Below, piece by piece: positions 9,143 to 12,213 of a stretch of DNA of 64,000 nucleotides. This DNA comes from Faecalibacterium longum CLA-AA-H243 (GTDB lineage Bacteria; Bacillota; Clostridia; Oscillospirales; Ruminococcaceae), in the NCBI RefSeq assembly GCF_020687245.1, contig NZ_JAJEQG010000002.1, positions 124,001 to 188,000 on the forward strand. The letters are read 5' to 3'. The stretch's first letter is position 1, and each line of letters opens with the position of its first letter. A program made the translations under genes and the position numbers. Below the pieces are notes generated by a model. The model did not search any database, was not told where the DNA came from, and saw nothing but the letters and a program-made list of their open reading frames with translations.

Positions 9143-10336
9143 ATGTCGATTTATCTGGACGAGAAAAATCCCGAAAAACATAAGCCTTTTGATGATGCCT
9201 CGCCGGACATCGTCGCGTATGTGCGCTATCTGGAAGTCATCGCAGGCAAAAGCCCCAACACGGCCTTCAGCTATTACTGCGACCTACGCAATTTCAGCCG
9301 CTTTATGAAGCGCCGGCGCGGCCTTGTAACAGACGATACCGAAATAAAGGACATCGACCCCAAGGGGCTCGATACGGCTTTCTGGGGCAGTGTGACCAAG
9401 GAAGACGTTTATGAGTATCTGTACTTTCTGAACAGCGAGTGCGGCAACAAAAAGTCTTCGACGGCCCGGCGGCTGGCAAGTCTCCACGGCTTTTATGATT
9501 ATCTGGTCAATCAGGTAGATTTGCTCAAAGAGAATCCGACGGCATCCATCAAGCCACCCAAGCAGGATAAAGTCCTTCCCAAGTACCTGACGGCAGAGCA
9601 ATCCATGGACCTTCTGGAAAGCACCCAGACCCAGAGCGATTTCCTGGAGCGGGATTACTGCATGGTCGTGCTGTTTCTGAACTGCGGGATGCGTCTTTCG
9701 GAGCTTGTCGGCATGGACCTCGGCGACATCGACATGGAACAGCGGCAGATCCGTTTGTTTGGCAAAGGCCATAAAGAGCGGATGGTCTACCTGAATGATG
9801 CCTGCAAGGAGGCATTGCAGATTTATCTGAACAAGCGCAACACGATGGAGGGTCTGAACCCCAAAGAGAGAGCTGTCTTTATCACCCGGCGGCGCAAGGA
9901 GCGAATCTCAAACCGCAGGGTAGAGCAGCTGGTCACCGGCGCCATGAAAGCAGCGGGTCTGCGCGGTTTTTCCACCCATAAGCTCCGCCATACTGCCGCG
10001 ACGCTGATGTATCAGACTGGCAACGTGGATATTCTGACCCTCAAACAGCTTCTGGGCCACAGCAGCGTCGGCACGACACAAATTTATACACACCTGCAGG
10101 AATTTCAGGTGCGTGCAGCGATTGAGCAGAATCCGCTGGGTGAAGTTAAGAAGGCAAGCTTGGATACAACGTCAAAGAAGACAGGGGAGAGCAAGGGAGA
10201 ATTTGCCGATTCTCCGTCGGATGAGCCTGAAAATGATGCACCGGACGGCCCGATGGAAGCCTTTGAGGATGCCGCACAGGAGGGTTTCCGGGTGGATGTG
10301 TCGAGCCTTGCCGATATGGAGAACACCGACAAATGA
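9143..10336 (+). CDS. Tyrosine recombinase XerC/XerD family
   Basis: A 397-residue site-specific recombinase. The N-terminal SAM-like DNA-binding domain covers about 20-130, and the catalytic domain has the complete set R184, K208, H279, R282, H305 and Y315 (HKLRHTAATLM, LGHSSVGTTQIYTH). After about residue 335 an acidic tail of some 60 residues is present that standard XerC/D (about 300 residues) lacks. A dif-like 11-6-11 site lies 835 bases downstream of the stop. It may act as a chromosome dimer resolvase; which of the XerC/XerD roles cannot be told from one gene. Confidence 0.9.
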   Translation: MSIYLDEKNPEKHKPFDDASPDIVAYVRYLEVIAGKSPNTAFSYYCDLRNFSRFMKRRRGLVTDDTEIKDIDPKGLDTAFWGSVTKEDVYEYLYFLNSECGNKKSSTARRLASLHGFYDYLVNQVDLLKENPTASIKPPKQDKVLPKYLTAEQSMDLLESTQTQSDFLERDYCMVVLFLNCGMRLSELVGMDLGDIDMEQRQIRLFGKGHKERMVYLNDACKEALQIYLNKRNTMEGLNPKERAVFITRRRKERISNRRVEQLVTGAMKAAGLRGFSTHKLRHTAATLMYQTGNVDILTLKQLLGHSSVGTTQIYTHLQEFQVRAAIEQNPLGEVKKASLDTTSKKTGESKGEFADSPSDEPENDAPDGPMEAFEDAAQEGFRVDVSSLADMENTDK

Positions 10337-11022
10337 TGACATGGGTACAAACGCAGAAGCTTCGGCGTGATGAGGCCTCGCTGATGACAGAATGGCAGAC
10401 ACGCTGGGCGCAGTCTGCCTGTTTTAATGCCGACGGTGTTGTGGACTATGAGCGCTGGTCAGCACTTCCGGACAGAAAACATATCGTTGTACTGTTAAAA
10501 GAAACGAATGGGCTGCACGGCAGCCTCGTGGAGTTTCTTTATCATGGAGGCAGCAAAACCTACTACAGGACGTGGAATAATGTCGCACGCTGGGCAAATA
10601 TGATTTTGAACGGTACATACTGGAAATTTGTTCCAAAATCTTCGCTGGACGATATGGTGCGGAATATCGCTGTGGTAAACCTGAAAAAGTGTCCGGGCGG
10701 TGCCATCGCAAGCTCAAAAGCGGTACGGCAGGCCGCCCGGCAAGATGCGGACCTGTTAAAGTGTCAGATACAGCTTTATGAGCCGGATATTATCCTGACC
10801 GGCGGCTGGGGGCTGGTATCGAACATTTTACATGATGAGATATTTGCAGATGATGCTGAATGGATCAGACCCCATGAAGAGACTGCATTGTGGTATTACA
10901 AAAGCAGTTTGGTCTGCACAGGTAAAGAAACGCTTGTTGTAAGTATGCCGCACCCGAATCGAGCGGCAAAGAACTGGACATTAGAGTTAGAAAAGGTTTT
11001 ACGAGCAACCGGACGATTGTAA
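10333..11022 (+). CDS. Unknown protein with uracil-DNA-glycosylase-like motifs
   Basis: A 229-residue protein overlapping the recombinase stop by four bases (ATGA), a sign of translational coupling. VVLLKETNG near residue 50, NIAVVNLKK near 115, PDIILTGG near 155 and SMPHPNR near 210 follow the order of motifs in uracil-DNA-glycosylase-like folds (NVV, central strand, and a HPS-like end). Base composition is visibly less GC-rich than radA. Identity is tentative; an alternative start at the Met-18 codon is possible. No function is claimed. Confidence 0.5.
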   Translation: MMTWVQTQKLRRDEASLMTEWQTRWAQSACFNADGVVDYERWSALPDRKHIVVLLKETNGLHGSLVEFLYHGGSKTYYRTWNNVARWANMILNGTYWKFVPKSSLDDMVRNIAVVNLKKCPGGAIASSKAVRQAARQDADLLKCQIQLYEPDIILTGGWGLVSNILHDEIFADDAEWIRPHEETALWYYKSSLVCTGKETLVVSMPHPNRAAKNWTLELEKVLRATGRL

Positions 11023-11170
11023 AACAAAAAAGCTGACCAAACATACAAAGCAATGCATTCAAATAACACAACTGTACAAAACGCGAAAAAACGGCCCAGC
11101 CAGCCCAAAAGGCTCAGAAACCGCCGGAAAGGCCCGAAATTCGGAAAAGAGGGCTTTTTCACTCCCCTAT

Positions 11171-11198
11171 ATTTCGTATAACCTGCATTATACGAAAT
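11171..11198. other. dif-like Xer recombination site
   Basis: Two perfect 11-bp inverted arms, ATTTCGTATAA and TTATACGAAAT, flank a 6-bp centre, CCTGCA. The arms extend symmetrically by two more bases (11169-11200). The right arm matches the E. coli XerD half-site TTATGTTAAAT at 8 of 11 positions, and the 11-6-11 spacing is that of dif. It lies between convergent genes, so an operator role is unlikely, and it is close to a Xer gene. Confidence 0.65.
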
Positions 11199-11215
11199 AT
11201 TATGAAAATCAAAAA

Positions 11216-11379: not shown

Positions 11380-12213
11380 TTACAGCGGTGTATCCAGCGG
11401 CTGTGTTCCGAAGTACGCGCAGATCGCTTCATAGTAAGCGCGCGCCACTGTCTTACAGCCTTCTTCGCTACCAAACTGTGCAACGTCCTCTTCGCTGGTC
11501 ACAAAGCACTGTTCTGCCAGAACCGCCGGACAGTTTACATCTTCCAACAAGGTAAAGCTTCGCTCGTCCCTTACTTCGGTATGGGTGCTCTCTACAAGCT
11601 GCTTTACCTCGCCCCGATAATAAATGTACCGGATGCCGCCGTGGCCGCGGAGCTTTGCGCCTGCGGCCTGCATTCCCTGCGCCAGCTGCTGCGCGAAGTA
11701 ATAGCTCTCCTGATGCCATGTACGGCCCGGAACGGACGGATAACACTCAAAGCCTGCAGCGGTAGATCCTTCCGGCGCGGAGTTGCCGTGGATGGACAGC
11801 AGCAGCTGCGGGCTCTGGGCATTGATGGCCTCTGCCCGCTCGCTGGGCTTTGCGGTGACATCATAGCTTTCACGGGAGCGCAGCGGGATGTAATTAGGGT
11901 CGGCCTCCAGCAGCGCAAGCAGAGCCTCGGAGGTCTGGGCCGTCATCTCTTTTTCTTCGACGACTCCCCTTGCGCCCGGGTCGCTCCCGCCGTGGCCGGC
12001 ATCAATGCAGACCCGGTAGGGCGGGTCGCCCACCACAGGCCGGAAAGGTTCTTCCCCGCTCTCATTTTGCCCGGAGCCGAACAGCGCTGCTTTCCAAAGG
12101 AAAAATGCTGCACTGAAGCAGACGACGCACACCAAAAGGCCGATGACCGTCGCAGTGGACGGGCCGCACTGTTTTCTCCGGCGTGCGTGTCTTGGATTTG
12201 AACGTCCTGCCAT
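11380..12213 (-). CDS. N-acetylmuramoyl-L-alanine amidase (Amidase_3, CwlD-like)
   Basis: A 277-residue zinc amidase that cleaves the lactyl-peptide bond in peptidoglycan. A basic start and one membrane anchor (about 20-45) place the enzyme outside the cell. DAGHGGSDPGA carries the first zinc His, E86-E87 region the Glu, IHGNS the second His, and PAVLAEQCFV the catalytic Glu. Size and anchor resemble CwlD, which makes muramic-lactam in spore cortex, but a vegetative role is equally possible. It follows mutS2 by four bases. Confidence 0.85.
   Translation of the reverse strand: MAGRSNPRHARRRKQCGPSTATVIGLLVCVVCFSAAFFLWKAALFGSGQNESGEEPFRPVVGDPPYRVCIDAGHGGSDPGARGVVEEKEMTAQTSEALLALLEADPNYIPLRSRESYDVTAKPSERAEAINAQSPQLLLSIHGNSAPEGSTAAGFECYPSVPGRTWHQESYYFAQQLAQGMQAAGAKLRGHGGIRYIYYRGEVKQLVESTHTEVRDERSFTLLEDVNCPAVLAEQCFVTSEEDVAQFGSEEGCKTVARAYYEAICAYFGTQPLDTPL

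Follow-up and report, generated by a model that had tools for sequence, protein, structure and literature searches.

A Candidate dif Site of Mirrored Arms beside a Xer Recombinase Gene in Faecalibacterium and its Counterparts in Other Clostridia

A perfect inverted repeat found downstream of a Xer-type recombinase gene in Faecalibacterium longum is, with a probability that we put at about 0.9 from the sequence evidence, the dif site of the Faecalibacterium chromosome, and the nearby gene, called xer here, is predicted to encode the recombinase that acts on it. One recombinase very probably serves dif in this genus, as judged from gene content and site symmetry. The wider pattern, a Xer branch that extends across Clostridia together with putative dif sites whose arms are mirrored and specific to each lineage, is on our reading of the genomes a new form of the known Xer/dif system. 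In the window, by which we mean the whole stretch of 64,000 nucleotides that was analysed, the features of interest are as follows.

9143..10336, + strand: xer, Xer-type tyrosine recombinase of 397 amino acids (P0001; Pfam Phage_integrase, 8.1e-37), the only strong Xer match of the genome
10333-11022, + strand: open reading frame P0002 of 229 amino acids, between xer and the site
11162..11167, + strand: conserved box CTCCCC (GGGGAG on the other strand), adjoining the proximal half-site
11169..11181, + strand: box-proximal arm with half-site 11171-11181, which varies more in the genus than the distal one
11171..11198, + strand: putative dif core of 11-6-11 layout (basis: repeat structure, genome counts and matches in the genus)
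11182..11187, + strand: central region CCTGCA of 6 nt, the asymmetric part of the core
11188..11200, + strand: box-distal arm with half-site 11188-11198, the half that is nearly constant in the genus
11380-12213, - strand: N-acetylmuramoyl-L-alanine amidase gene, beyond the site and followed by mutS2

The Inverted Repeat and the Recombinase Gene

The repeat occupies positions 11169-11200 and consists of two 13-bp arms, 100% complementary, around a 6-bp centre, with the inner 11-6-11 layout at 11171-11198, just as a first-pass annotation of the same DNA had described it. That annotation placed the repeat in a convergent intergenic region 835 bases past the recombinase gene, which is correct when the distance is taken to the core (832 bp to the arm), and the two genes that converge on the site are the + strand frame 10333-11022 and the - strand amidase gene. 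Its match of 8 out of 11 between the right arm and the XerD half-site is also right against the E. coli XerD half-site. The core is the single match in the window at up to three mismatches, none being found in 100 shuffles, and the genome-wide count of the 28-mer that had been proposed as a check gave one exact copy in the own genome (G000; 2,962,236 bases in 89 contigs). The same contig carries, 48.7 kb further left and outside the window, a second, near copy with two mismatches (G000:C22:86467-86494; L002:1501-1528), which keeps 24 of 26 arm positions, has the centre TATGGA and lacks the box. This second palindrome follows nrdR in an intergenic stretch that is 300-330 bp longer than in two congeners (G003 and G015), where no comparable second site was found near by in the equivalent stretch.

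The product of xer carries the R-K-H-R-H-Y active site of tyrosine recombinases as R184, K208, H279, R282, H306 and Y315, which confirms the full catalytic set that had been ascribed to the neighbouring gene, and the six residues are invariant in 18 of 18 sequences from the genus and in 71 of 71 wider relatives. The models of named Xer families score it below their cut-offs: 217 bits for XerC and 204 for XerD in NCBIfam (both more than 100 bits below the curated values), 193.6 of the 220 bits required for XerA, and 148 of the 267 bits that membership in XerS requires. Among solved chains the closest in sequence are those of XerA and XerD, and the match to a XerH chain (4.8e-19) is weaker than either. 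In a structure model of modest quality (pLDDT 70.9) the top fold matches are XerA (5hxy), an archaeal Xer, a phage integrase and XerD, while XerH appears from rank 16 down, the TM-scores over the query being 0.3-0.4. The protein also matches phage integrase families, and the general integrase family is matched 17 times in the own genome. Conservation is poor over residues 344-397, which are modelled with very low confidence and probably form a disordered tail in Faecalibacterium; the open frames of many other clostridial family members are about 325-370 amino acids long. We note in passing that chain 14 of PDB entry 9i5v, with 401 residues, matches the Xer profile at 2.6e-32 and yet is listed as 'Ribosome-associated translation inhibitor RaiA', a name that looks misplaced. 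Before xer lie radA, a spoIIM-like gene (a weak match) and queA. The frame between xer and the site, P0002, has no match in Pfam, NCBIfam or PHROGs, and a tblastn search of genus loci that extend at most 1.5 kb to each side found it in two of 28, the own locus and that of G002 (78% identity); the gap from xer to the site is just 405-676 bp in 14 other loci of the genus.

Conservation and Anatomy of the Site in Faecalibacterium

When the 20 arm positions were searched with up to three mismatches in 31 Faecalibacterium genomes, the site was found in 28, with one match in 24 genomes, two in four and none in three, a distribution that corresponds to one dif per chromosome. The extra matches are the two-mismatch copy of the own genome, one copy on a second contig of G005, and a three-mismatch copy in each of G002 and G014, a level that a reversed control pattern also reaches (six matches in five of the 31 genomes). 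Three genomes lack the pattern: in G020 xer is preceded by a perfect palindrome whose arms are different, and the other two are 84% (G004) and 79% (G024) complete. The recombinase is matched at E <=1e-20 in 28 of the 31 genomes, in G026 as a fragment, and the further matches that occur in five genomes reach at most 78 bits. Of the 28 genomes that have the site, 26 carry it on the same contig as xer and less than 4 kb away; there the site lies downstream of xer by 405-3,936 bp in 23 and upstream by 24-82 bp in three. As to the remaining two, the site and xer are on different contigs in one and no xer was found in the other.

All 28 sites, 27 of them dissected by script and one near a locus end (L011) read from the search output, have a CTYCCC box a few bases from one half-site. 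With the box drawn on the left, the distal half reads TTATACGAAA in 27 of the 28 (26 of 27 by script, plus L011), and the proximal half takes five forms. The two half-sites are identical over 10 bp in 12 sites and differ by one or two positions in the other 16, so that the symmetry seen in the window is one end of a range. From this alignment the distal half-site appears to be under stricter constraint than the proximal one; in XerCD dif it is the XerD half that is more strictly constrained, according to PMC3025954. Two other roles for the box were considered and rejected. As part of a terminator it fails, the upstream RNA folding no better than shuffles (z -0.41), a terminator scan finding none, and the box being kept where the T-run is broken (L025, L026 and L031). 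As a KOPS, GGGGAG does favour the leading strand in samples of G002 (152 vs 63), but the copy beside dif points the opposite way.

Position at the Terminus

The terminus position rests on relatives because the own assembly is in 89 contigs. In all eight congeners available as single contigs the site lies 0.49-0.54 of the way round from dnaA (exact lengths were used for G002, G003, G014 and G029, and rounded table values for the other four), dnaA itself being at base 34-40 in six of them, at 166,083 in G028 and at 1,630,814 in G027; two more genomes with dnaA located, G174 and G137, were left out of this count since their contigs are not closed. Of 20 sampled 20-kb stretches of G002, 10 of the 11 that precede the site have positive GC skew and all nine that follow it have negative skew; within an 80-kb stretch the cumulative skew peaks 116 bp from the site. 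The site of these closed relatives is found where a dif is expected, at the skew switch and opposite dnaA. The earlier proposals to look for the skew switch at the site, and to regard the locus as a marker of the terminus, are both borne out in the congeners.

One Strong Xer Protein and FtsK

The XerCD/dif system is defined by two paralogous recombinases and two different half-sites, and neither feature is seen here: the arms in the window are identical, and each of nine Faecalibacterium genomes (the own and the eight closed ones) has one match of 198-203 bits to the XerD model, the model on which these counts rest, this match being the xer ortholog. The next best matches in the nine genomes score 76-165 bits and vary in kind from genome to genome. 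No match passes the XerD cut-off, which alone proves little because the cut-off is strict and only four of 14 control genomes pass it; the gap in bits is for that reason the better evidence for one Xer. The search for a second Xer gene that the first-pass annotation had called for has thus found no second strong XerC or XerD in nine of nine genomes. FtsK-gamma is present once in each of the nine.

The Recombinase Family and Mirrored Sites in Other Clostridia

With a profile built from the 18-sequence alignment, a scan of named genomes gave at least 563 relatives, and the best 80, which we used, come from Faecalibacterium, Gemmiger, Fournierella, Anaerofilum and other clostridial genomes. At E <=1e-45, exactly one match is present in 141 of the 148 genomes searched from the order; in the class, 62 of 97 genomes have one match, three have two or three, and 32 have none. 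A tree of 92 rows separates the family (71) from clostridial XerD and other integrases (21) by a branch with a support of 98/94, some of the 21 outside rows having long branches and XerC, XerS, XerH, XerA and XerL being absent from the tree.

Loci of Gemmiger and Fournierella carry a perfect palindrome, TTTCGCTAAA-N6-TTTAGCGAAA, upstream of xer and mostly with the box. After 60 loci had been added, giving 140 in total with some near-duplicates, 46 perfect 10-6-10 palindromes were counted in the 150 bp before xer (24.6 kb), the background at more than 1.2 kb from xer being 0.056 per kb. Odd centre lengths in the same 150 bp give zero or one palindrome, and other even lengths are also high because the same palindromes are nested; enrichment was measured against far sequence and odd centres since a count of pairs on selected palindromes would be circular. 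The near palindromes have AAA|TTT at the centre in 45 of 46 cases, against four of 49 far ones. In a recount, 61 of the 140 loci have a perfect palindrome within 800 bp upstream of xer and six have one elsewhere within 2.5 kb; 18 have 8-9 of 10 pairs upstream, some maybe by chance, and four have 9 of 10 elsewhere, three of these being Faecalibacterium; two have less than 800 bp of upstream DNA. No palindrome of the dif type was found in the remaining 49 of the 140 loci, among them a Faecalibacterium locus (L130) with 8 of 10 pairs downstream. By a loose motif test the box is on the right in 36 of the 61 upstream sites, on the left in six, on both sides in two and on neither in 17, and in five of the six left-box sites the centre starts with TTT, the reverse of the usual.

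The 61 upstream sites display 22 different arms, each of them mirrored. Both arms turn over in step, which argues for one protein that binds both halves. The annotation had drawn the same conclusion, one recombinase for both arms, from the perfect symmetry of the single site; the conclusion gains from these lineages with different yet mirrored arms, and the symmetry on which it stood holds only in part within the genus, where 12 of 28 sites are perfect over 10 bp.

The position of the palindrome relative to the skew maximum was compared over 80-200 kb in 12 genomes, namely 11 single contigs and G151, which has 1.94 Mb in one of two contigs. The distance is 28 bp in G234, 33 in G194, 47 in G201, 116 in G002, 120 in G134, 120 in G240 (9 of 10 pairs), 308 in G193, 1,867 in G241, 2,593 in G151, 7,789 in G036, 14,876 in G258 and 15,652 in G105. 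It is at most 120 bp in six of the 12 closed or nearly closed genomes, a result to be read with the way in which palindromes were picked: a filter left 24 candidates in 1.2 Mb, and one per genome was chosen for having arms of a type found elsewhere and for its closeness to xer or to the skew switch, which biases the comparison towards the dif reading. Two of the six are genomes whose xer is far off, by 66 kb in G194 and 14 kb in G234, and in both no palindrome of the dif type with 9-10 of 10 pairs was found within 2.5 kb of xer. G194 indicates that the predicted site can be far from xer, and on this evidence the site appears to follow the skew and not the gene. The gene itself is 0.47-0.58 of the way round from dnaA in 10 of 11 genomes outside Faecalibacterium, and the exception is G151 (0.198), where the skew changes sign near xer, weakly.

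A single recombinase is established for Faecalibacterium only, because other clostridial genomes have a XerD match alongside the family. Among ten closed genomes with the family this match reaches 299-374 bits in six and 233-242 bits in two (G105 and G240); it is 139 bits in G193, and G241 has none besides the family. In G134 (C1:1949433-1951362) and G036 (C1:1545363-1547240) the genes of the clostridial Xer and of the XerD-like protein lie directly next to each other at the terminus and converge. It is then conceivable that the rest of the Clostridia have in this enzyme just their local XerC, which forms a heterotetramer with canonical XerD on dif, and that only Faecalibacterium, having lost XerD, uses the enzyme alone; this account is unlikely. 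The frequency of XerD matches and the two convergent pairs speak for it, as does XerC being the best NCBIfam model for all six members scanned, but their XerC scores are more than 100 bits below the cut-off. Such a pair would be expected to act on two different half-sites, and in each of the six genomes with XerD at 299-374 bits a palindrome with perfectly mirrored arms is present close to xer or to the skew switch; the mirrored arms thus argue, by sequence comparison, that XerD may not share the site in other Clostridia. The heterotetramer also draws on a stretch of G234, 72,684 bases after the start of xer (73 kb), that agrees at 22 of 28 positions with the Firmicutes dif consensus, a level reached in one of 40 simulated G234-like sequences; the G234 assembly is listed with 11% contamination and also has the palindrome 28 bp from its skew maximum. 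A canonical Firmicutes dif (by the same consensus) was looked for more widely and rejected, the best values being 22/28 (one place in G234), 21/28 (G258 and elsewhere in G234) and at most 20 in the other stretches scanned, so that outside G234 the consensus stays at or below 21/28. The 49 loci in which no site was found and the G234 consensus match make the dif reading slightly weaker and a XerC/XerD pair slightly stronger.

Another role for the palindrome would be that of an operator by which Xer controls the xer gene itself or the neighbours, with no recombination site involved, and this we hold to be very improbable. The palindrome does lie within 150 bp before the xer match in 45 loci, where an operator is expected, and at some loci, L157 and L175 for example, the box stands ahead of the start codon and has the form of a Shine-Dalgarno sequence. 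Against it, the Faecalibacterium site is mostly downstream of xer and in the window stands between convergent genes, the palindromes of G194 and G234 are close to the skew maximum and remote from xer, and the arms keep the 6-bp centre as in dif.

That the palindrome is the attachment site or the scar of a mobile element which borrows or carries Xer, with the real dif elsewhere, is barely credible: the near copy in its longer intergenic stretch and the phage integrase matches of the xer protein would fit, but a comparison of that stretch with phage and plasmid records gave no match, the neighbours that were checked are core genes (queA, radA, the spoIIM-like gene, the amidase gene and mutS2), site and gene are conserved across the genus with the site at the terminus of relatives, and the exact site pattern occurs in only two viral contigs, by eye AT-rich and unrelated. 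The suggestion that the locus is a target of Xer-using mobile elements is accordingly not upheld, none having been found in the viral, phage and plasmid searches. Relaxed by one position the pattern occurs in six viral contigs, the two exact ones included, and neither the box-plus-site pattern nor the second-site pattern occurs in any. The two exact matches (L104:6099-6124 and L105:4771-4796) read TTTCGTATAA-N6-TTATACGAAA in contigs that look unrelated to Faecalibacterium, and these palindromes may be Xer sites of other hosts.

Comparison with Known Systems

The dif reading places the Faecalibacterium pair among several known systems. XerL/difL of Legionella and Coxiella (PMC9765430) is alike in having one recombinase and a site of low GC content close to the terminus whose inverted-repeat arms (10 and 12 bp) are uninterrupted, and differs in the distance between dif and xerL, which in L. 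pneumophila is more than 400 kb. The XerS/difSL system of streptococci and lactococci shares a single recombinase, a gene that adjoins the site and a host in the Firmicutes, but difSL has 31 bp with an 11-bp centre (PMC5357621) against the 6-bp centre here, and the protein falls short of the XerS model. XerH/difH of Helicobacter and Campylobacter likewise has a single recombinase near its site, whereas dif sites other than difL are described as only partly symmetric (PMC9765430); the fold matches include XerH-difH structures from rank 16 downwards, and the sequence match to XerH is below those to XerA and XerD. With XerCD/dif of E. coli, and CodV/RipX of B. subtilis, the site has in common the 11-6-11 layout, the terminus position and the FtsK-gamma gene, and the contrast is between two recombinases on two different half-sites and one strong Xer with mirrored half-sites in Faecalibacterium. 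Archaeal XerA/dif is also a single-recombinase system and XerA is the closest solved relative by sequence and by fold, but the protein does not reach the XerA model, and XerA is reported to act independently of FtsK (PMC5357621).

The string TTCGTATA-N8-TATACGAA at 11173-11196 of the window is identical to the inner arms of loxP. Both systems have symmetric arms, and the shared string may be chance; Cre differs in being an enzyme of phage P1, with 14-15% identity in the fold table.

No paper among those listed by searches of the open-access literature treats dif in Faecalibacterium or Ruminococcaceae, or a symmetric clostridial dif. In PMC3025954 dif was predicted in 97 of 100 Firmicutes organisms with two clostridia among the three failures, and the main text contains neither Faecalibacterium nor Ruminococc-, while its predictions may include single clostridial sites. 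PMC9765430 and PMC5357621 have no mention of 'Clostridi', the passages of PMC13342612 have nothing on clostridial dif, and in PMC8138268 a single subgroup comprises XerC/D, H, S and A.

Proposed Mechanism and Implications

How the system might work can be outlined from the parts found. An odd number of crossovers would produce chromosome dimers, which FtsK would bring to the septum. Two copies of dif would then synapse with four molecules of one Xer, two on each site and one on each half-site, and Tyr315 would cut the strands on either side of the 6-bp centre, with exchange in two steps. Since the two arms do not differ, it would fall to the asymmetric centre and to the CTCCCC box, which would mark one half-site, to set the direction and the order of exchange. 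The site, the gene with its active-site residues, the terminus position in relatives, the conservation, the one strong Xer per genome and the FtsK-gamma gene are observed; binding, strand exchange, activation by FtsK and the role of the box we infer.

Taken jointly for the class, we propose tentatively, giving the whole slightly less than an even chance, that most Clostridia resolve dimers by one little-noticed branch of Xer that would act as a homotetramer on a fully mirrored dif; that the arms would have changed many times with the two halves in step; that the GGGGAG box would provide polarity in one large group; and that XerD, where it persists, would be off dif, maybe as an SMC unloader only, Faecalibacterium being without it. 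In B. subtilis XerD has the function of unloading SMC complexes (PMC8242196 and PMC12322038), which would be one reason why Clostridia might keep it.

For Faecalibacterium the site would offer a landmark of the terminus, and the pattern a rule for locating dif in other Clostridia, a group hardly treated in the Xer papers searched. The mirrored and lineage-specific arms would form a natural series on the joint change of recombinase and site, and Cre/lox would have in this system a cousin that is symmetric and linked to FtsK. Should XerD in Clostridia have no part in dif recombination, its other role, the SMC unloading seen in B. subtilis, would become testable on its own.
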